Below are positions 6,396 to 16,152 of a stretch of DNA of 42,260 bases, piece after piece; within the stretch, counting starts at the first letter, position 1, and every line of letters begins with the position of its first letter. A program made the translations under genes and the position numbers. The stretch spans positions 1 through 42,260 of the forward strand of contig JALHOE010000061.1 in assembly GCA_022843175.1 (NCBI GenBank), read 5' to 3'. The notes beneath the pieces were generated by a model that did not search any database, had not been told where the DNA came from, and saw only the letters and a list, made by a program, of their open reading frames with translations. The stretch is from Deltaproteobacteria bacterium (lineage in GTDB: Bacteria; Myxococcota_A; Polyangia; Polyangiales; JADJMO01).

Positions 6396-7301
6396 ATGGT
6401 TCGCTTTCGCCTCCGACTCCAGGTGCACGAGTACGAGCTTCCCGCCGGAATGACGATCATCGGCCGCGCACCGAGCTGCAACCTCACGATCGACGACGCG
6501 CTGCTGTCGCGCGAGCACGCCGCGATCACCGTTGGGGGCGAGCGGGTCGTCGCTCGCGATCTCGGTAGCCGCAACGGCACCTACGTCAACGGCCTGCGCG
6601 TCGAGGGCGAGATCGAGCTCCGCGACGGCGATCGGGTGAAGATCGGCGCCACCGAGGCCATCTTCAGCCGCGTGGTCCGATCGCGCCGCCCCCTCTCGGC
6701 CACGACCGGCGCGGTCGCGACGTGCCGCACCTGCGCGTCGCCCTACGTCGCCCCCGCTCCGAATTGCCCGCGCTGTGGCGCCGCCTCGCCGGCGGGCGCG
6801 GAGCGGCGAACGGAGAGCCAGACGCGCCGCGACTTCTGGTTGTCGCTCGAGGTCGAGCTGCTCGACAGGGCGATGGAGCTGCTCCGTCTCGGCGAGGCAG
6901 AGGACATCGTGCTGCGCCTGCAGACCAAGCTCGACGAGCTGCTCGCGGTCAACGCGCGGTTCGAGCAGACGGCGCTCGAACGGGCGCTCTCCGCGGTCGT
7001 GCGCTTCTCCCTCGCGCGCGGCACCAGCCGCAAGATCGGCTGGGTGCTCGATGTGCTGCGCAAGCTCGATCTCCTGCCGGGCGCGGAGCTGTTCGCGCTG
7101 ATCGCCGCGACGCCCCCGATCCTCCTCGAGGAGGTCAGCGACAACCTCGGCGCGCTGATCGCCCACCATCGAGCGCGAGTCACCGGCGCCGCGGAGGGAC
7201 GCTGCCTGCAGAGCCTCGCGCTTCTCTGCGACGACCTTGTGGCCCTTGGTGCGAGGCGCGCGGACGACACCGAGCCGCACGACCCGGTCGCCGTCCTCTG
7301 A
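6396..7301 (+). CDS. FHA-domain protein with zinc ribbon
   Basis: 301 residues from the ATG at 6396. An in-frame start at 6339 would add a basic, non-homologous tail. Residues 1-95 form a forkhead-associated domain that binds phosphothreonine: IIGRAPSC, SREHAAI and DLGSRNGTYVNG are the diagnostic loops. Cys110, Cys113, Cys124 and Cys127 (CRTC...CPRC) form a four-Cys zinc ribbon. The remaining about 165 residues are helical and unassigned (RDFWLSLEVELLDRAMELLR). The protein is cytoplasmic. It follows the hybrid kinase by 153 bp on the same strand. FHA proteins normally read Ser/Thr kinase signals, but no such kinase is in the window, so its partner is unknown. Confidence 0.9.
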   Translation: MVRFRLRLQVHEYELPAGMTIIGRAPSCNLTIDDALLSREHAAITVGGERVVARDLGSRNGTYVNGLRVEGEIELRDGDRVKIGATEAIFSRVVRSRRPLSATTGAVATCRTCASPYVAPAPNCPRCGAASPAGAERRTESQTRRDFWLSLEVELLDRAMELLRLGEAEDIVLRLQTKLDELLAVNARFEQTALERALSAVVRFSLARGTSRKIGWVLDVLRKLDLLPGAELFALIAATPPILLEEVSDNLGALIAHHRARVTGAAEGRCLQSLALLCDDLVALGARRADDTEPHDPVAVL

Positions 7302-7434: not shown

Positions 7435-9726
7435 ATGGCGCTTCGTAACCTGTTCATTGGCTCCCGCCTGCCGTTCGCTGCGATGACGCTCGGTGTTGCC
7501 TGCGCGCTGGCCACGTCGGCCGGCGGTTGCGGCAAACGAGAGGCCGGTGGCAGCGATGTCATCGGCGACGTGCCCGGCGTCGTGTTCGCCAAGCGCGCGA
7601 ACTTCGACAAGGCCGGTGCCCCGCAGGTGGGCAACGGCACCGACCAGGTCATCGACTACCTCCGGTACGTGCCGGGTGGCGGGCTCTTCATGCTCGCCCC
7701 GCCCCGCCCCGACGGGAAGCTCACCAACATCACCAAGGCGTTCCCCGACGCCGACGTGAACGCGCTCGACGTGTCGTTCGACGGCAAGCGCGTGGTCTTC
7801 TCGATGAAGATCAATGGCGAGGACAAGTATCACGTGTGGGTCGCCGACACCGAGGCGGGCCCCAAGGGCGATCACAACATCCGCCAACTCACGTTCGGCA
7901 AGACGCGCGACGACGTGATGCCGATCTTCATCCCCGGCGACCGCATCGCGTTCGTCACCAACCAGCCCTACACCCCGATGGGCACCCGCGCCGACGAGTA
8001 CGAGCACGCGGCGATCGTCTCGCAGATCGCCACCATCTCGACGACCGGCGGCGACGCCGATCGCCGGGTGTGCTCGCAGAACCTCTCGCACACCGTCAAC
8101 CTGTTCCTCCGCAGCGACGGCACGATCGGGTTCTCGCGCTGGGAGCACCTCGGCAACGTCAACGACGTGAAGCTGTTCAAGATGAACCCGGACTGCACGC
8201 AGATGCTGGCGGTCGCCGGGCAGCACGGCAAGCCGATGAACAGCATCGTGCAGGTCAAAGAGGTCAAGCCGGAGGTGATGGTCGGCATCGCCACCAAGCG
8301 CAATGGAACGATCCACTCCGGCGCTCTCTACGAGGTCGACGTCCGCGCCCCGGCCGGCGCGTCGCAGCCGACGGACGAAGAGCACGCGAAGTTCACCAAC
8401 CTCACGCCGGGCGTCCCGACCGGCAGCGAGCCGTCGCCGATCGGCCGCTACCGCACCCCGAACTTCCTCCCCGACGGGCGCCTGCTCGTGTCGTGGGCGC
8501 AGGGCTTCGTCAACGAGCAGAACGAGCTCGAGATGGTGCCGCCGAACTTCGGCGTCTACGTCTACGACCCGGCCACCAAGAAGAACACGCTGGTCTACGA
8601 CGACGCGCGCTTCTCCGAGCTCTACGCCGCGCCGCTCGTCGCCCGCCCCGCGCCGCCGGTGATCTACGACGTCAACAAGCGCGTCGACCCGAGCACCCCG
8701 GCGGTGATCGGCTCGATCGACGTCACCCAGACGTCGCTCAAGGAGTCGGTGTCCGGCGCCCAGTTCATGAACACCGACCTCGGCGAGGCGCTCAAGCAGG
8801 CCGTCGCGGTCCGCGTGATCGAGGGCTTCTCCTCCGAGATCGGCTCGCAGCCGATGTTCGGTCTGACGATGCACGAGGGCGGCGCGGTCCTCGGCGAGGC
8901 GCCGGTGTTCGGCGACGGCTCGTGGGGCGCGAAGATCCCCGCCTACCTCCCGGTGCACCTCCAGCCGATCGACAAGTTCGGCCTCGCGATCCGCAACCAG
9001 GGGCTGTGGATCCAGGGCATGCCGGGCGAGACCCGCACCTGCGGCGGCTGCCACGAGTCGCGCACTCAGGTCATCGCGCCGCGCAAGGGCCCGGGCCTCA
9101 CGATCGCGCAGCAGAAGGGCGCGACCGACATGCTCAAGCCGATCAAGGATCGCGAGGAGTTCGGCTGGGACGTCGCCATCCAGCCCATCCTCAACAGCAA
9201 GTGCGTGAGCTGCCACGGCAGCGACAGCGCGCTCGCGAAGAAGACCTACAAGATCCAGTACACCGACCGCGACGGCAAGATGAGCGAGTACGAGATCCCG
9301 TGGCTCGATCTGAGCGGCGACTCGATGACGGTCCCGTACGACATGGGGATCTACACCTTCTCGAAGTCGTACGTGTCGCTCTACTACCCGGCCGAGCTGC
9401 GGATGGGCATGACCCGCGGCATCAAGGTCATCGGCGAGCTCCCCCCGCCGTGGATGGTCCCCGCTGACGCGCGCAACTCGAAGCTCATCGAGACGATCAA
9501 CGTGAAGGCCGCCGACGGCACCCTCGCGTGGAACGGCAAGCCCGAGCACGACGTCGTGAAGGGCTCGGCGATGACGACCCAGGAGAAGCTCGCGCTCATC
9601 AAGTCCGCCGACCTCGGTGGTCAGTGGGTGTCGCGACAGAACGTCAAGAACGCGACCTGCTGGAAGGGCGCGGACGCCGACAAGGGCACCTGCGGCAACG
9701 GCGGCGCGGCCGGGATCCAGTACTGA
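7435..9726 (+). CDS. Exported diheme c-type cytochrome with beta-propeller (HZS-alpha-like architecture)
   Basis: 763 residues, ATG at 7435, with Shine-Dalgarno GGAGG 6 nt upstream. It starts with a signal peptide whose end (SAGGCGK) may be a weak lipobox. The N-terminal about 450 residues contain WD40/PD40-like blades (DVSFDGKRVVFSM, PNFLPDGRLLVSW). Two canonical CXXCH heme-c motifs follow: CGGCH at 536-540 and CVSCH at 590-594. The propeller followed by two heme segments resembles the hydrazine synthase alpha-subunit layout found in many non-anammox exported proteins. That similarity does not make it a hydrazine synthase. It heads a five-gene co-directional run and likely takes part in periplasmic or surface electron transfer. 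The redox partner is unknown. Confidence 0.88.
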   Translation: MALRNLFIGSRLPFAAMTLGVACALATSAGGCGKREAGGSDVIGDVPGVVFAKRANFDKAGAPQVGNGTDQVIDYLRYVPGGGLFMLAPPRPDGKLTNITKAFPDADVNALDVSFDGKRVVFSMKINGEDKYHVWVADTEAGPKGDHNIRQLTFGKTRDDVMPIFIPGDRIAFVTNQPYTPMGTRADEYEHAAIVSQIATISTTGGDADRRVCSQNLSHTVNLFLRSDGTIGFSRWEHLGNVNDVKLFKMNPDCTQMLAVAGQHGKPMNSIVQVKEVKPEVMVGIATKRNGTIHSGALYEVDVRAPAGASQPTDEEHAKFTNLTPGVPTGSEPSPIGRYRTPNFLPDGRLLVSWAQGFVNEQNELEMVPPNFGVYVYDPATKKNTLVYDDARFSELYAAPLVARPAPPVIYDVNKRVDPSTPAVIGSIDVTQTSLKESVSGAQFMNTDLGEALKQAVAVRVIEGFSSEIGSQPMFGLTMHEGGAVLGEAPVFGDGSWGAKIPAYLPVHLQPIDKFGLAIRNQGLWIQGMPGETRTCGGCHESRTQVIAPRKGPGLTIAQQKGATDMLKPIKDREEFGWDVAIQPILNSKCVSCHGSDSALAKKTYKIQYTDRDGKMSEYEIPWLDLSGDSMTVPYDMGIYTFSKSYVSLYYPAELRMGMTRGIKVIGELPPPWMVPADARNSKLIETINVKAADGTLAWNGKPEHDVVKGSAMTTQEKLALIKSADLGGQWVSRQNVKNATCWKGADADKGTCGNGGAAGIQY

Positions 9727-9741
9727 AAGGAGGATGCGGAC

Positions 9742-10611
9742 ATGAAAAAGTTCTTTATCGCTTCGCTCGCCATCCTCGGGGTCCTCGCGGTGAACACGCC
9801 GAAGGAGGCGCGCACCGAGGAGCCGCTCGCCGACAACTCGCTCGAGGTCATCGCCACCCCGGAGGCGATCAAGGAGGTCGCCCTCCGCGGCGCGCCGATC
9901 GCCATCTGGGCGACGCTCGAGCACGGTGAGATGCTCGAGTGCGGGGAGTGCATCTCGTACGTCGAGCCGCTCCTCTACAACAAGGACGCCCGCGTCCGCG
10001 AGATCGCGGCGTGGTGGCTCCGCCGCCGAATCTTCGGCTACGCGGAGGTCGCGCTCAAGGTCCGCAAGGTCATCGAGAGCGACGCCGATCCGGTGCGCCG
10101 CGCCGCCGCGGCCAACGCCATCGGTGAGTTCATGGACCCGGGCGGCACCAAGTTCCTCCTCAAGGCAGCGAGCGACACGAGCCCGCTCGTGAGGGCCAAC
10201 GTCCTCACCGCGATCCGCCGCCTCAACGATCCCGACGGCGCGCCCGCCGTGACCGCCGGCCTCGGCGACGGGGACGTCTCGGTGCGCCGGGTGGCGGTCG
10301 AGGTCGCGACCAAGCTCGCCGGCTTCAAGGACGTCGTCTCGGTCGCCAAGCTCCTGTCCGATCCGGACACCGTGGTGCGCGGCAAGGCAGCCGACGCGCT
10401 CGGGGTCTTCAAGGCCAAGGGCTCGGTCGCCGGCCTGATGGCCCTCGCGGTCAACGACGCCGACGAGGACGTCCGCGTCGACGCGGTCAACGCGCTCGGC
10501 GAGATCGGCGATCCCGCGGCGCGCCCCACCATCGAGAAGGCGCTCAACGACGCCTCCTCCCGCGTCCGCGACGCGGCGCGGGTGGCTTCGATCAAGATCT
10601 CCGCCATCTGA
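9742..10611 (+). CDS. Exported HEAT-repeat protein with CxxC
   Basis: 289 residues, ATG at 9742, preceded by a strong Shine-Dalgarno (AAAGGAGG) 15 bp after the diheme cytochrome stop. Signal peptide MKKFFIASLAILGVLAV. A CGEC pair (Cys67-Cys70) lies in the first helical region. About seven HEAT/PBS-lyase-type repeats follow at roughly 31-residue spacing, each with a VR-x-A helix (DARVREIAAW, DPVRRAAAANAIG, SPLVRANVL, VSVRRVAVEVA, TVVRGKAADALG, EDVRVDAVNALG, SRVRDAARV). HEAT solenoids are protein-docking scaffolds. An assembly or docking role for the neighbouring cytochromes is inferred from the operon position. The CxxC could be a disulfide or a metal or heme-handling site. Confidence 0.87.
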   Translation: MKKFFIASLAILGVLAVNTPKEARTEEPLADNSLEVIATPEAIKEVALRGAPIAIWATLEHGEMLECGECISYVEPLLYNKDARVREIAAWWLRRRIFGYAEVALKVRKVIESDADPVRRAAAANAIGEFMDPGGTKFLLKAASDTSPLVRANVLTAIRRLNDPDGAPAVTAGLGDGDVSVRRVAVEVATKLAGFKDVVSVAKLLSDPDTVVRGKAADALGVFKAKGSVAGLMALAVNDADEDVRVDAVNALGEIGDPAARPTIEKALNDASSRVRDAARVASIKISAI

Positions 10612-10614
10612 TCG

Positions 10615-10699
10615 GGAGCCGCGACCGTCAGGGAGCGGGTTGTCACGGATACAAGTCCTCGACAACCCGCTCGCTTACGCTCGCGGCTCCACTTTTTTT
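10615..10699 (+). repeat. REP-type inverted repeat followed by T7 (attenuator-like)
   Basis: Two 30-nt arms, 10615-10644 and 10661-10690, pair at 27 of 30 positions around a 16-nt loop. The outer arm begins GGAGCCGCGA and the inner end is GGGTTGTC. Seven T residues (10693-10699) follow the stem by 2 nt, which is the layout of a Rho-independent terminator. The cytochrome start codon is only 7 nt beyond the T-run. A third, single copy of the same arm is at 40513-40542, so the arm is a dispersed repeat. It may cap the upstream transcript, attenuate the downstream gene, or just be a REP insertion. Confidence 0.75.
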
Positions 10700-10706
10700 C
10701 GCTAGG

Positions 10707-13700
10707 ATGATGTTCGTGCGAGTCGCGCAAGCTCTGCTCCTGACCTCGCTCCTCTTCGGCTGCAAAGCGTCCGAGCAGCCAGAGGCCAAGCCGTACTTCG
10801 ACCGCACGATCCTGCCGATCCTCCAGGGCTCGTGCGCGCAGCAGACCGCCGGGTGCCACCGCTCGGATCCGAAGGGCAACGCGCTCGGCAACCTCGACAC
10901 CACGTCGTTCGAGATGCTCGACCGGCGGCGCGATCTGCTCGTCACCTACGGCCCCTACGGAGCGCCCGGTCTGCTCGCGAAGGTCGCCGGCCCGAGCAGC
11001 GTCCCGGTGTCCACGCTCGACGGCAACGTCTCGATCACCACCGACATCCGCCACGCGGCGTCGAGCGGCATCGACCCCACGAGCGACGGCTACGCCACGA
11101 TTCGTCGCTGGCTCGACGGCGGCGCCACCCGCAACAACGTCGGCCCCGCCGCGCCCAAGTTCGCGGCCGTCGGTCCGTGCAAGGCGAGCGTCCCGAGCGC
11201 CGCCGGCTTCGATCCCAAGGCCGTCCCCGCGGGGTTCCCCGAGTTCCTCGATCGGGTGCAGCCGGTGCTCAAGAAGTCCTGCAGCGCCGCCACCTGCCAC
11301 GGCAACGACGTCGCCGATCTGTCCCTCACCTGCGGCGACACCGAGGAGCAGCAGAAGTGGAACGCGTGGATCGCGGCGCAGTTCGTCTCGGCCACGCCGG
11401 AGGCCTCGGAGATCGTGCGCCGCCCGCTCAACCCCGCGCGCGGCGGCGTCTACCACGAGGGCGGCGTCGTCTTCGACGGCACCGACGACGAGGGCTACAA
11501 AGCGATCCTCACCTGGGCCAAGAGCGTCGGACCGCCGAAGGTCGATGCGTCGGAAGAGGGCCTCCGCTACTTCGCGAACCGCGTCCAGCCGATGATGGTC
11601 CGCAAGGGCTGCATGTTCCTCGGCTGCCACTCGCCGTCGATGTTCCACGACCTGCGCCTGTCGGGCGGCTCCGGCGGGCAGTTCTCCCTCGCGGCCACTC
11701 GCCGCAACTACGAGGCCTCGCAGCTCATGCTCGCGACCGAGGCCCCCGACCCCAACGTCAGCCGCCTGATCAAGAAGAACCTCTACCCGTTCGACCGCGA
11801 GATCGATCGCACGGCGATCGGCACGCGCCACCGCGGCGGCGCGCTCCTCGAGGACGTCCCCCGCGCCGACGTCACGTCGACCGCGCCCCCCAAGCTCGAG
11901 GACTGCAAGGCCTTCGATCTCGACAAGGGCGATCTCAACACCATCCCCGGCTGGTGCATCTTCGCGAAGTGGCACGAAATCGAGCGCAAGGTCGCGATCG
12001 CGAAGGGCCCCGGCAAGGGCGGCGTCGACGCCGAGCCGCTGCGCGCGGTGGCGTGGGTCGAGCGCGCCCCCAACACCGACGTGCCGCAGGCGTTCGACAC
12101 GTTCCGCGGCGGCGCAGTGCTGCAGCTCGCGGCCGCCACCATGGACGCGACCGGCACGGTCACCATCGGCGCGACCGACGACCTCGGCGCCAAGTGCGGC
12201 CTCGCCGGCGCCGACATCCGCGCCCCCGCGGTGTCCTGGGACGGCACCAAGCTCGCGTTCGCCGCGCGCACGTCTGCCGATACCCCGCTCGCGATCTACA
12301 CCGCCAACGCCGACGGCAGCGGGTGCGCCAAGCACCCCACGATCTCTGCCCACGAGGCGCGCGGCAACGGCCTGCTCATCCACGACTTCGATCCGGCGTG
12401 GGCCCCCGACGGCCGGCTCGTGTTCGCGTCGACCCGCGGCGCGATCAAGCAGAGCGACCTCGACTACGAGGGCCCCACGCGCACGCCCGCGAGCATGCTG
12501 CCGAACTCGAACATCTACGTGCTCGAGGGCGACAAGATCCGCCAGCTGAGCTTCCTCCTCAACGCGGAGCTCGCGCCGTCGTTCATGAGCGACGGCCGCC
12601 TGATGTTCACCACCGAGAAGCGCGCCCCCGGCTTCTACCAGCTGGCCGGCCGCCGCCAGAACCTCGACGGCGGCGACTACCACCCGCTCTACGCGCAGCG
12701 AAAGAGCCTCGGCTTCGAGCAAATGACCGAGGTCGCCGAGCTCGCCGACCGCAACTTCATCGGCGTCTTCAGCGACAAGGGCGCGCTGGCGGGCGCCGGC
12801 ACGGTCGGCGTCGTCAACCGCTCGCTCGGCCCCGATCAAGAGGCGCGCGATCCGACCGACCGCTTCTACCTCAAGTCGCTCCACCTCCCCGACGCGGCGG
12901 CCACCGGCAAGCCGATGAGCACCGGCGCGTATCGCAGCCCGTCGCCGCTGCCGACGCACGGGTTCCTCGCGAGCTACGCCGCGGCGAACCCCTACGGCTT
13001 CGACGGCGGCTTCGATCTCGTGCAGGTCGATCCGCGCGTGGGCACGCGCACCGTGCTCGTCACCCGCCCCGCCGGCAAATCGATCGTCGAGGCCGTCGCG
13101 GTCTACGCCCGGCCGAATCACGGCGTGTTCGCGTCGCGCCTCGACGAGGTCAACGGCGCGACCACCGTCGAGCCGGGCGCGCTCGACGCGCTCGCCCACG
13201 TCCTCGACGTCCCGCTCCTCGGCTCGCTCCTCTTCGAGAACATCCGCGCGGCGCGCAAGATCGACGGCATGGCCAGCGGCCTCGGGTTGCTCGAGTCGCT
13301 GCCGCCGCCCGCCGGCGCGGCCTCGTTCGACGCGCTCGACGCCGCGTTCGTCGCGAACGACGAGTACGGCAAGCTGTGGGTGAAGCGGCGTCGCCTCGGC
13401 AAGGCCAACCTCGCCGACGACGGCTCGCTCAGCTTCCGCATCCCGGGCGGCATGCCCTTCGTGCTCGAACTCTACACCGGCAAGGACTCGGTGCTCGCCG
13501 CGACGCAGAAGGAGGAGATGCAGCTGCTCCCCGGCGAGCGCTCGCGCATCGGCTTCCGTGGCCCGCTGTTCAACGCGCAGTGCGGCGGCTGCCACGGCGC
13601 CATCAGCGGCCTCGAGATCGACGTCCACCTCACGCCGGACGTGCTCACCGCCGCGTCGCGGGTCGAGTCCATCGGGAAGGATCCGAACAACTGGTTCGTT

Positions 13701-13745
13701 TCCCCCGATCGACGCGGCACCCCCATGGGTGCGCCCCCGAAGTAA
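10707..13745 (+). CDS. Lipoprotein c-type cytochrome with four heme-like motifs of mixed spacing
   Basis: 1012 residues from ATG at 10707 (the next codon is also ATG). The lipoprotein signal MMFVRVAQALLLTSLLFGC has lipobox LFGC. Three homologous N-terminal units share an F-x-(6-8)-P-(9-11)-CH pattern: ILPILQGSC...GCH (Cys43, CX6CH), VQPVLKKSCSAATCH (Cys192, CX4CH) and VQPMMVRKGCMFLGCH (Cys302, CX4CH). A middle beta-propeller-like region has TolB/PD40 strands (PAVSWDGTKLAFAAR, PAWAPDGRLVFAS). A canonical CGGCH is at 959-963. The layout parallels the gene at 7435 and again recalls HZS-alpha-type proteins. CX4CH sites can bind heme c in some families. The CX6CH site may not. Probable outer-membrane electron carrier. 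Confidence 0.85.
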   Translation: MMFVRVAQALLLTSLLFGCKASEQPEAKPYFDRTILPILQGSCAQQTAGCHRSDPKGNALGNLDTTSFEMLDRRRDLLVTYGPYGAPGLLAKVAGPSSVPVSTLDGNVSITTDIRHAASSGIDPTSDGYATIRRWLDGGATRNNVGPAAPKFAAVGPCKASVPSAAGFDPKAVPAGFPEFLDRVQPVLKKSCSAATCHGNDVADLSLTCGDTEEQQKWNAWIAAQFVSATPEASEIVRRPLNPARGGVYHEGGVVFDGTDDEGYKAILTWAKSVGPPKVDASEEGLRYFANRVQPMMVRKGCMFLGCHSPSMFHDLRLSGGSGGQFSLAATRRNYEASQLMLATEAPDPNVSRLIKKNLYPFDREIDRTAIGTRHRGGALLEDVPRADVTSTAPPKLEDCKAFDLDKGDLNTIPGWCIFAKWHEIERKVAIAKGPGKGGVDAEPLRAVAWVERAPNTDVPQAFDTFRGGAVLQLAAATMDATGTVTIGATDDLGAKCGLAGADIRAPAVSWDGTKLAFAARTSADTPLAIYTANADGSGCAKHPTISAHEARGNGLLIHDFDPAWAPDGRLVFASTRGAIKQSDLDYEGPTRTPASMLPNSNIYVLEGDKIRQLSFLLNAELAPSFMSDGRLMFTTEKRAPGFYQLAGRRQNLDGGDYHPLYAQRKSLGFEQMTEVAELADRNFIGVFSDKGALAGAGTVGVVNRSLGPDQEARDPTDRFYLKSLHLPDAAATGKPMSTGAYRSPSPLPTHGFLASYAAANPYGFDGGFDLVQVDPRVGTRTVLVTRPAGKSIVEAVAVYARPNHGVFASRLDEVNGATTVEPGALDALAHVLDVPLLGSLLFENIRAARKIDGMASGLGLLESLPPPAGAASFDALDAAFVANDEYGKLWVKRRRLGKANLADDGSLSFRIPGGMPFVLELYTGKDSVLAATQKEEMQLLPGERSRIGFRGPLFNAQCGGCHGAISGLEIDVHLTPDVLTAASRVESIGKDPNNWFVSPDRRGTPMGAPPK

Positions 13746-14587
13746 TGATCAAGGTCGCCTCCGCCTCGGTGTTCGGTGTGCTGCTGATGTTCGGGCCTCG
13801 CGTGCTCGAGGCGTCGCTCCGCACGACCGAGCCCGGAGCGCCGGCCGCCCCGACCGCGGCCGAAGCGCTCGAGCTCGCGGGCGGCTGCCCGCCCTTCACG
13901 TTCGCCGACGACGGCGCGTGCGTCGTGCTGCCCGACGATCCGACCTGGGGCGAGGATCCCGTCGGCGCACCGGAGGGCGAGGTCATCCCCGCCGGTCATT
14001 TCGAGAAGAGCGGCCGGTGGAAGGCCTACGCCCAGATCCCGCGAAGACCCGACCGTCCGGCGGACTACGCGGCGTACAAGTACCCGATCCCGCCCGGCCT
14101 CCCCGGCGGCAAGAGCGTCGTCAGCGGCTACGACCTCGATCTCCCCGACCACCTGCAGCGTCGCGGCAAGATGCGCGCGGTCGGGCACGGTGCGGTCGAT
14201 CTCCCCCAGAAGCGCGGCACGCCGATCAAAATGCTCCCGCTCGAGCACCAGGTCGGCGACGCCGAGGTCATTCACGTCGGGTGGCTGATGGGGTTCAGCG
14301 TCGTCACCCGACACACGCTCCGCGAGGGCGGGCGCACCCGCGACTACGTGCTCATCTTCGGCCACCTCGACGCCGCGGCCCCCGGTCTGACGCGCGGCGC
14401 CGTGCTCCGCGAGGGAGAGCTCGTCGGGTTCGTCGGCGACACGGGCTCGCCCGAGCTGGTGCACCTCCACCTCGAGGCTCGGCGCCTGCACGACGGAGTC
14501 GACGGGTCGAAGCTGCTCCCGGGGCGTATCCTTGCAGCAGATGTCTCGATCGTGTGCGATCCGCGCAATGTCCTTCCGATCAAGTAG
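13745..14587 (+). CDS. M23-family (LytM) metallopeptidase
   Basis: 280 residues. The ATG at 13745 overlaps the previous stop (TAATG), so translation is coupled. N-terminal hydrophobic segment (SVFGVLLMFGPRVL) acts as signal or anchor. The C-terminal about 130 residues carry the zinc-peptidase pattern: H-x3-D in GHGAVDLPQKRGTPI, a YVLIFGHLD strand and the HxH pair in LVHLHLEAR. The two His and the Asp needed for zinc binding are thus visible, so it may be active, unlike degenerate LytM proteins. M23 enzymes cut peptidoglycan peptides. Here it could open the wall for assembly of the large exported cytochromes. That link is inferred only from the coupled gene order. Confidence 0.85.
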   Translation: MIKVASASVFGVLLMFGPRVLEASLRTTEPGAPAAPTAAEALELAGGCPPFTFADDGACVVLPDDPTWGEDPVGAPEGEVIPAGHFEKSGRWKAYAQIPRRPDRPADYAAYKYPIPPGLPGGKSVVSGYDLDLPDHLQRRGKMRAVGHGAVDLPQKRGTPIKMLPLEHQVGDAEVIHVGWLMGFSVVTRHTLREGGRTRDYVLIFGHLDAAAPGLTRGAVLREGELVGFVGDTGSPELVHLHLEARRLHDGVDGSKLLPGRILAADVSIVCDPRNVLPIK

Positions 14588-15158
14588 CGCCCTCTTCGGG
14601 GCGGCGCTGCTCGTCGGCTGCAACGCGCTGACCGGCGTGGACGAGCTCGAGAGAGTCTCGGACGACGCCTCGATCGAGGTCGCCATCGACACCGGCGTCA
14701 CCCCGCTCGACACCGGCACGCCGCCGGTCGTCGTCGACAGCACCGACCCGCTCGACACGACGCTCGACGTGGCCGAGGCCGCCGCCGACACCGCCGACGC
14801 GTGCGAGGCGTTCGGCGTCGATCAGGACATGGACGGCGAGCTCCCCACCGCGACGTGCGGCACCGACTGCAACGACCGGAACAACGACGTGTTCTCGAAG
14901 CAGCTCAAGTTCTTCGGCAGCCCCTACTCCACCGGCCTCGCGACGTCGTCGTTCGACTACGACTGCAACGGCGTCGACGAGCCGCGTTTCCCCGACGTCG
15001 GCGGTTGCACGATGGTCGGCGGAGCCTGCACGTTGGCGCCGGGCTGGGCGAGCGCCATCCCGGCCTGTGGCAAGGCGGCGAAGTACATCACCAACTGCGC
15101 GCGCTTCGGCGACACCTGCATTCCGCAGCAGAACGACCGCGTCCAGCAGTGTCGCTGA
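14568..15158 (+). CDS. Lipoprotein with MopE-type metal-binding motif
   Basis: 196 residues from ATG at 14568. An alternative in-frame ATG at 14541 adds nine residues. It overlaps the peptidase gene by 20 nt. The signal MSFRSSSALFGAALLVGC is a clear lipoprotein signal. An Asp/Thr/Val-rich spacer (about residues 30-80) follows. The central motif DQDMDG...CGTDCNDRNNDV and then DYDCNGVDEP match the putative metal-binding motif of MopE-like proteins (PF11617 type), common in myxobacterial surface proteins. Seven further Cys lie in the C-terminal part. MopE itself binds copper. Metal identity here cannot be told. It ends 1 bp from the convergent VKOR-DsbA gene. Last gene of the cytochrome cluster. 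Confidence 0.82.
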   Translation: MSFRSSSALFGAALLVGCNALTGVDELERVSDDASIEVAIDTGVTPLDTGTPPVVVDSTDPLDTTLDVAEAAADTADACEAFGVDQDMDGELPTATCGTDCNDRNNDVFSKQLKFFGSPYSTGLATSSFDYDCNGVDEPRFPDVGGCTMVGGACTLAPGWASAIPACGKAAKYITNCARFGDTCIPQQNDRVQQCR

Positions 15159-15159
15159 G

Positions 15160-16152
15160 CTAGGGGTGGCGGGAGAGAAACGCCGCGGCTCCCGCCTCGT
15201 CGAGCGCGCCGATGTGCCGCTCGCCGTCGAGATCGATCGTCGGGAGCCCCGGCACCTTCGTCGCCGTGGCGAGGGCCTTGTCGTCGTCGATCCGCTTCTT
15301 GGCGCGGCCGCTCTTGGTGCACTCGTCGAATTTGGCGAGGTCGAGGCCGACGGTGGTCGCGACCTTGCGGCAGAAGTCCGGGGTGGGCTCGACCTCGCTC
15401 GTCATCACCGCGTCGACGAACGCCTCCTCCTTCTCCTGCTCACCGGCGCAGCACGCGGCCACCGCGGCCGGCTCGGCGTGCTCGTGCATGGCGAGCGGGA
15501 CGTGACGTCGCTCGATGACGACGTCTGGCCGGGCCGCGAGCGCCTTCTTGAGCGCGACGTGGGTCATGCGACAGTAGGGGCACTCGAGGTCGACGAACTC
15601 GCGCAGCACGATCTTTCCCTCGCGCTTGGGGAGCGCCGCGATCGGCTCGCCGGACACGACCCTCGGCTGCGACAGCGCGAGGACGAGCGGGGTGGCGACC
15701 GCGGCGACGCCCGCGAGCGACGCGATGCCCGGGCGGAGCCAACGCCGCTCGTGCGCGCGCTCGAAGAGGAGCGCTCCGCCGCCGACGATCGACGCGATAT
15801 CGATGGCCACGCAGAACGGACACCACGCGTGGATCACGAACGCTTGGAGCGCGAGCAGGTGGAAGCCCTCGACGATGAAGGCGAAGCCGAGCAGACGGCC
15901 GACTCGGCGCGCGACCTCGCCCCTGGCGATGACCACGAAGAGGAGGACGGCGAACGCGACGACGCCGATGAGCGAGCGCGGCACGCCGAGGAGGGTGCTG
16001 TAGGCGCTGTGCGCGACCCGGTCGCAGCCGCCGCCCGCGCCGCAGAACCCGCGGCGCACGATGTAGGGCGCGAGGAGCGCGGCGCTCGCCGCGAGGCCGA
16101 CCAGGGCCGAGCCCGCGGCGACCAGACGAGAGGGTTGAATCCGCTCGGCCAT
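15160..16152 (-). CDS. VKOR-DsbA fusion (membrane disulfide-generating protein)
   Basis: Regenerates and transfers disulfide bonds. The VKOR half takes electrons to quinone and the DsbA half oxidises exported proteins. About 330 residues from ATG at 16152. An in-frame ATG at 16185 is possible but would leave 21 bp to the divergent gene. The first half has four hydrophobic helices, the loop pair FCGAGGGC (Cys37/Cys43) and the CXXC active site WCPFC (Cys111/Cys114). The second half is a thioredoxin fold with CPYC (Cys191/Cys194) in DLECPYCR and cis-Pro VPGLPTI. All redox cysteines are present. Such fusions replace the separate DsbA/DsbB pair in some bacteria. It lies directly downstream of the Cys-rich cytochrome cluster, on the opposite strand. 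Confidence 0.93.
   Translation of the reverse strand: MAERIQPSRLVAAGSALVGLAASAALLAPYIVRRGFCGAGGGCDRVAHSAYSTLLGVPRSLIGVVAFAVLLFVVIARGEVARRVGRLLGFAFIVEGFHLLALQAFVIHAWCPFCVAIDIASIVGGGALLFERAHERRWLRPGIASLAGVAAVATPLVLALSQPRVVSGEPIAALPKREGKIVLREFVDLECPYCRMTHVALKKALAARPDVVIERRHVPLAMHEHAEPAAVAACCAGEQEKEEAFVDAVMTSEVEPTPDFCRKVATTVGLDLAKFDECTKSGRAKKRIDDDKALATATKVPGLPTIDLDGERHIGALDEAGAAAFLSRHP

Follow-up and report, generated by a model that had tools for sequence, protein, structure and literature searches.

Gene organization of the locus

The window analyzed here is the 42,260-nucleotide contig JALHOE010000061.1 (forward strand; GenBank assembly GCA_022843175.1, Deltaproteobacteria bacterium), denoted C61 in a 9.75-Mb genome. 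It carries a cluster of five genes, g1 to g5, all on the + strand, of which the first three, encoding two heme lipoproteins with a predicted hydrazine synthase (HZS) alpha fold and an exported HEAT-repeat protein, form a conserved unit that is the subject of this work.

7435..9726, + strand: g1, 763-aa diheme lipoprotein with predicted HZS-alpha fold; ATG start at 7435
9742..10611, + strand: g2, exported HEAT-repeat protein, 289 aa
10707..13745, + strand: g3, 1012-aa lipoprotein with four heme-type motifs
13745..14587, + strand: g4, exported, putative M23-type peptidase
14568..15158, + strand: g5, Cys-rich lipoprotein

Genes g1 and g2 are separated by 15 bp and g2 and g3 by 95 bp, whereas g3 and g4 overlap by 1 nt and g4 and g5 by 20 nt. 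The five reading frames, their strand and their spacing are those given in the original prediction for this DNA, which was made without database searches, and the two CxxCH motifs of g1 and four heme-type motifs of g3 that it listed are also present. It took all five products to be exported, and the corresponding signals are visible: g1, g3 and g5 each have a lipobox, g2 has a signal at its N-terminus, and g4 has either a signal or an anchor. Scanning for sigma-70 promoters and terminators yielded no promoter and nothing above chance, the expected outcome because the DNA is GC-rich.

Conservation and distribution of the three-gene unit

Among 77 related genomes (weak and partial matches were left out of the counts), g1 is present in 28, g2 in 27 and g3 in 27. 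Every genome with g2 also has g1 and g3, and orthologs of g2 were found nowhere else; the single genome with g1 but without g2 and g3 (G007) carries g1 where a short contig ends. When one genome per species was scanned, 132 contigs with relatives of g1 were identified, and among the best 80 of these 132 (identity down to 32%; hereafter, named loci), g2 lies directly downstream of g1 in 77, the other 3 being broken by a contig end. Complete copies of g1, g2 and g3 stand in this order in 59 of the 80 named loci; the median gap is 18 bp between g1 and g2 (often, there is a 4-bp overlap) and 94.5 bp between g2 and g3. The flanks vary by lineage, with no upstream family found at more than 20 of 74 loci and no downstream family at more than 11 of 57, so that the linkage of g1-g2-g3 is stronger than neutral synteny would give. 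The conserved unit consists of three genes, not five: the gene-neighbourhood comparison called for in the original prediction bears out the synteny of g1-g2-g3, whereas the linkage with g4 and g5 is not kept.

The heme, Cys and lipobox residues of the three proteins are invariant in 51 to 71 orthologs at about 25-66% identity, with the exception of g3 H51, and this conservation is far above chance. The named contigs are labelled Myxococcales, Myxococcota, Polyangiaceae, Sandaracinaceae, Kofleriaceae, Nannocystineae or genera of these, the remaining labels being Deltaproteobacteria or Proteobacteria metagenome-assembled genomes; the carriers are soil and sediment bacteria, Polyangia-type Myxococcota. 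Unit-bearing genomes are larger than the others (median 8.65 Mb vs. 5.7 Mb, p = 0.0008, uncorrected for phylogeny).

Predicted HZS-alpha fold of g1 and g3

The g1 protein consists of a propeller, an HZS_alpha middle domain (PF18582; E = 7.7e-14, 52.5 bits, where the gathering cut-off is 26.6) and a C-terminal cytochrome c domain.

8869..9057, + strand: HZS_alpha middle domain of g1, residues 479-541 (P0001 545-607), with the first heme motif at its end
9040..9054, + strand: g1 heme motif 1, C536-G-G-C539-H540, invariant in 71/71 orthologs; position of heme alpha-I
9202..9216, + strand: g1 heme motif 2, C590-V-S-C593-H594, with C590, C593 and H594 in 71/71; position of heme alpha-II

Single-sequence phmmer searches of the PDB gave only marginal matches to 5c2v, the hydrazine synthase structure from anammox bacteria, and profiles were required to detect the relationship. 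A profile of 25 g1 sequences matches 5c2v chain A with E = 3e-17, covering pieces of the propeller, the middle domain and the C-terminal cytochrome, and the g3 profile matches the HZS alpha chain with E = 4e-8. AlphaFold (AF2) models of both proteins, built from the window and named-locus sequences, have pTM of 0.86 (g1) and 0.90 (g3). The top fold match of the g1 model is 5c2v_A (Z 32.9, rmsd 3.0, 575 residues aligned) and that of the g3 model is 5c2v_D (Z 32.5, rmsd 3.4, 474 residues aligned, g3 315 to 1010). For both models, the VIA-align matches beyond 5c2v are propellers only; among these, TolB resembles g1 and g3 in the propeller (Z about 26-27) but has no heme and different partners. 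Judging from the models, g1 and g3 are distant paralogs that share the HZS-alpha fold, a relation that the original prediction missed; it also overlooked the HZS_alpha middle domain of g3 and the invariant CxxC of g2 (see below).

Apart from the heme motifs, the lipobox C32 and H705, a candidate distal ligand of heme 2, are invariant in all 71 g1 orthologs. So are W236 and H238 in the propeller, with L239 nearly so, and W525, G531, E532, R534, G538 and R543 around heme 1, where E541 is nearly invariant. At positions +1 to +11 after H540, a Tyr is found in none of the 71 orthologs.

Heme motifs and paralogs of g3

In g3, a PD40 match is accompanied by a weak HZS_alpha match (PF18582; 20.1 bits alone, under the cut-off of 26.6). 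Because the alignment with 5c2v is confined to residues 315-1010, the core with the HZS-alpha fold sits behind an N-terminal region with three heme-type motifs.

10833..10859, + strand: g3 heme-type motif 1, CX6CH, C43..C50-H51; C43 and C50 in 56/56 orthologs, H51 in 55/56 (one H51Q)
11280..11300, + strand: g3 heme motif 2, CX4CH, C192..C197-H198; 56/56
11610..11630, + strand: g3 heme motif 3, CX4CH, C302..C307-H308; 56/56
13581..13595, + strand: g3 heme motif 4, CX2CH, C959-C962-H963; 56/56, within the HZS-alpha-like core

The candidate distal ligands H116 (motif 1), H250 (motif 2) and H375 (motif 3) are present in 56/56 orthologs, and the three hemes of the N-terminal region are accordingly predicted, from conservation of the sequence, to be His/His-ligated. 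H659 and the lipobox C19 are also invariant (56/56).

Distant g3-type proteins in G011 and G050 adjoin proteins that match HZS beta-gamma models, and G064:C196 is arranged similarly; in G050, genes of the DUF3570 and DUF4266 families, domains that are part of a flavin/thiol redox system (PMC8238504), share the cluster. Given these neighbours, g3 may have arisen as the alpha member of an alpha + beta-gamma pair in which beta-gamma gave way to g1 and g2.

Paralogs of the g3 type also exist without g1 (related ARRANGEMENTS). One, in the window's own genome (L085:1631-4465, G000:C69), has 57% identity to g3, no g1 or g2, and is divergent from a CtaA/COX15 gene. Others (L091, L092, L094) lie near COX1-type oxidase genes and a gene of the tryptophanase/tyrosine phenol-lyase type (PF01212). 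In three Myxococcota loci (L103:343-5443, L104:7851-15424, L102:8634-16253), g3-type genes are near or adjoin beta-gamma-like propeller/di-heme genes, and the L104 cluster also encodes a small CX4CH protein along with members of DUF4266 and DUF3570. These alpha + beta-gamma pairs belong to a phylum that the main text of the 2025 survey (PMC12758564) does not name.

The HEAT-repeat protein g2

The g2 protein has a HEAT_2 match (E = 2e-30), and a CxxC motif is among its invariant residues.

9940..9951, + strand: g2 C67-x-x-C70, invariant in 51/51 orthologs

Residues E60, E63, R86, W91 and W92 are invariant in the same 51 orthologs. HEAT-type bilin lyases (5n3u) are among the matches of the g2 profile, but artificial alphaRep proteins score far better.

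Comparison with hydrazine synthase

Both heme motifs of g1 coincide with the alpha-I and alpha-II positions of HZS alpha, and H705 (71/71), the candidate distal ligand in g1, is aligned with alpha-His772, the distal ligand of the bis-His heme alpha-II. The numbering follows from His587, which is residue 560 of the chain, so that chain residue 745 of 5c2v, aligned to H705, is alpha-His772; the roles of alpha-His587 and alpha-His772 have been described (PMC12758564, PMC12607021). By contrast, Tyr591, the proximal ligand of heme alpha-I in HZS alpha, has no equivalent in g1 (0/71). Further differences are the lipid anchors of g1 and g3, the partners, which in the unit are a second alpha-fold cytochrome and the HEAT protein, and the three extra heme motifs of g3. 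The profile alignment of g1 with 5c2v leaves the region of the Zn-site Cys303 uncovered; this site is not conserved across all anammox bacteria (PMC12758564).

Neither g1 nor g3 qualifies as a hydrazine synthase. In g1, Tyr591, the published criterion (PMC12758564), is missing, even though the distal His of alpha-II is retained, and a beta-gamma partner is lacking: none of the inspected loci has a beta-gamma gene adjoining g1. Both proteins also fall below the 800-bit cut-off of the HZS equivalog NF052339 (46.9 bits for g1, 15.4 bits for g3). The window's own genome has weak matches to NF052342, all on other contigs.

To our knowledge, hydrazine synthase was long regarded as confined to anammox bacteria. 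Homologs of HZS alpha outside anammox bacteria are known from HZS-like pairs, in which alpha is co-located with beta-gamma homologs and for which other substrates have been proposed (clades I-IV, PMC12758564; hzs-like genes, PMC10732223). The unit resembles these in having an alpha-type protein with a canonical heme replacing the Tyr591 heme (loss of Tyr591 is also reported for other non-anammox alpha homologs, PMC12758564), but differs in its partners, the HEAT protein and a second alpha-fold protein instead of beta-gamma. Furthermore, alpha-His772 is reported to be missing from clade I homologs, but its position is occupied by H705 in g1. The string 'Myxococc' is absent from the main text of the 2025 survey (PMC12758564).

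The fold and the existence of alpha homologs outside anammox bacteria are already known, whereas the alpha-HEAT-alpha' unit in Polyangia is apparently new. No published description of this unit, its distribution in Polyangia or its CxxC HEAT partner was found in the literature searched, which lay mostly outside subscription journals, in agreement with the earlier view that this conserved, exported, heme-rich gene set has no named counterpart. The unit represents a second, independently conserved context for the HZS-alpha fold, with an obligate partner protein and no beta-gamma nearby, so that the role of this fold outside anammox bacteria becomes testable via three genes.

A proposed redox complex and its alternatives

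From the co-inheritance of the three genes, the invariance of the heme motifs and of the g2 CxxC, and the shared fold of the two models, we infer that the products of g1, g2 and g3 assemble into a single exported redox complex with lipid anchors (probability about 0.55). In such a complex, electrons would enter or leave via the N-terminal three-heme region of g3; the next carrier would be the CX2CH heme in the g3 core, which would exchange electrons with g1. Within g1, the C-terminal heme (alpha-II-like, putatively ligated by H594 and H705) would pass them on to heme 1 (alpha-I-like, H540), which faces the propeller. The g2 protein would clamp both cytochromes, and its CxxC may supply a disulfide or thiol function.

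Several observations weigh against this reading. At three named loci (L114, L134, L136), g3 is not downstream of g2, and in G021 and G050, g3 is located on another contig. Moreover, the existence of g3 paralogs with no g1 or g2 nearby implies that g3-type proteins can also function alone. Finally, CX6CH is an unusual spacing for a heme motif, and, going by its sequence, motif 1 of g3 might not bind heme.

A possible, if tentative, alternative is that the unit is a small-molecule redox enzyme similar to HZS, in which heme 1 of g1, enclosed by the propeller, would be the open site of catalysis for a nitrogen, oxygen or other small substrate, and g3 would be the electron-supplying subunit that replaces beta-gamma. 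The nearly full-length alpha fold of g1, the high conservation around heme 1, the substrates other than those of HZS proposed for published alpha + beta-gamma pairs, and the beta-gamma-like neighbours of g3-type proteins in G011 and G050 all point in this direction. However, Tyr is missing at the alpha-Tyr591 position in all g1 orthologs, heme 1 might be closed off by the invariant H238 acting as sixth ligand, and the unit shows no association with NosZ in the 77 genomes (11/28 vs. 18/49, p = 1). Rather doubtful is the more specific proposal of a new HZS-like enzyme branch for small-molecule redox chemistry in the Polyangia envelope, with a catalytic g1 and an electron-supplying g3 held together by g2, whose CxxC would be redox-active.

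We regard it as unlikely that g2 is instead a dedicated maturation factor, which would use its CxxC and HEAT surface to hold apo-cytochromes or heme during attachment at the unusual CX4CH and CX6CH sites of g3. The invariant CxxC and the match to bilin lyases fit this idea, as do thiol-redox genes near the unit in different lineages, of DsbD type at 10 of 26 loci and, in the window clade, a VKOR-DsbA fusion; these genes are not part of the unit and are compatible with either c-type cytochrome maturation or the CxxC of g2. However, the same motif types are found in g3 paralogs that have no adjoining g2, and the HEAT similarity is generic, given the far higher scores of alphaRep proteins.

It is distinctly improbable that the unit conducts electrons across the outer membrane for extracellular electron transfer, the role implied by the original prediction, which suggested a redox complex exposed at the surface and including a metal-binding surface lipoprotein. 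Like the Mtr and Pio conduits, the unit encodes exported multiheme lipoproteins, with lipoboxes, up to six hemes by motif and an envelope location suggested by the signals, but it has few hemes per protein and a different fold, the hemes being set in a large propeller scaffold and not in a porin-embedded chain. The MtrB/PioB porin is present in 0/77 related genomes, which disfavours an Mtr-type surface conduit, and the unit comes without a conserved beta-barrel gene. Furthermore, the residue following the lipobox Cys (mostly G or S in g1, variable in g3) does not indicate surface display, and the putative metal-binding lipoprotein, g5, is not part of the core. The proposal of a five-gene functional operon that includes the wall hydrolase and the MopE-like lipoprotein draws on the overlapping same-strand genes of the window and on the presence of the M23 gene in G003, but is very improbable and contradicted for the family, because among the other loci M23 is found in only one and g5 in none.

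Genes g4 and g5 and the flanking genes

The M23 label given to g4 is less secure than it was presented: the match to PF01551 (27.7 bits) is below the Pfam cut-off of 28.7, although the active-site motifs HxxxD (HGAVD) and HLH (HLHLE) are present in its sequence. A g4-type gene adjoins the unit only in the window and G003 (L065/L105), and g4 is a lineage-specific passenger, not a core gene. The MopE-like label of g5 is likewise weaker than given, with no Pfam or NCBIfam match up to E = 1; relatives of the g5 domain are scattered over unrelated contigs and adjoin the unit nowhere else, and g5 is not core either.

Upstream of g1 in the window, at a distance of 133 bp, lies an FHA-domain gene (6450-7301, + strand) that is not conserved at other unit loci. 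Convergent with the cluster is the VKOR-DsbA fusion (15160-16152, - strand), which likely makes envelope disulfides and is also kept in G003.

In Sandaracinaceae-type loci (L068:13657-17474 and equivalents), the unit is followed by two DUF4398 genes, of which one also has an OmpA domain, and by genes for two proteins outside any Pfam family, a membrane protein of 184 aa and a conserved, exported one of 522 aa. In Kofleriaceae-type loci (L163, L165, L167, L170, L171), a conserved sigma-factor-like gene lies directly upstream of g1 and is preceded by a large open reading frame (identified by eye).

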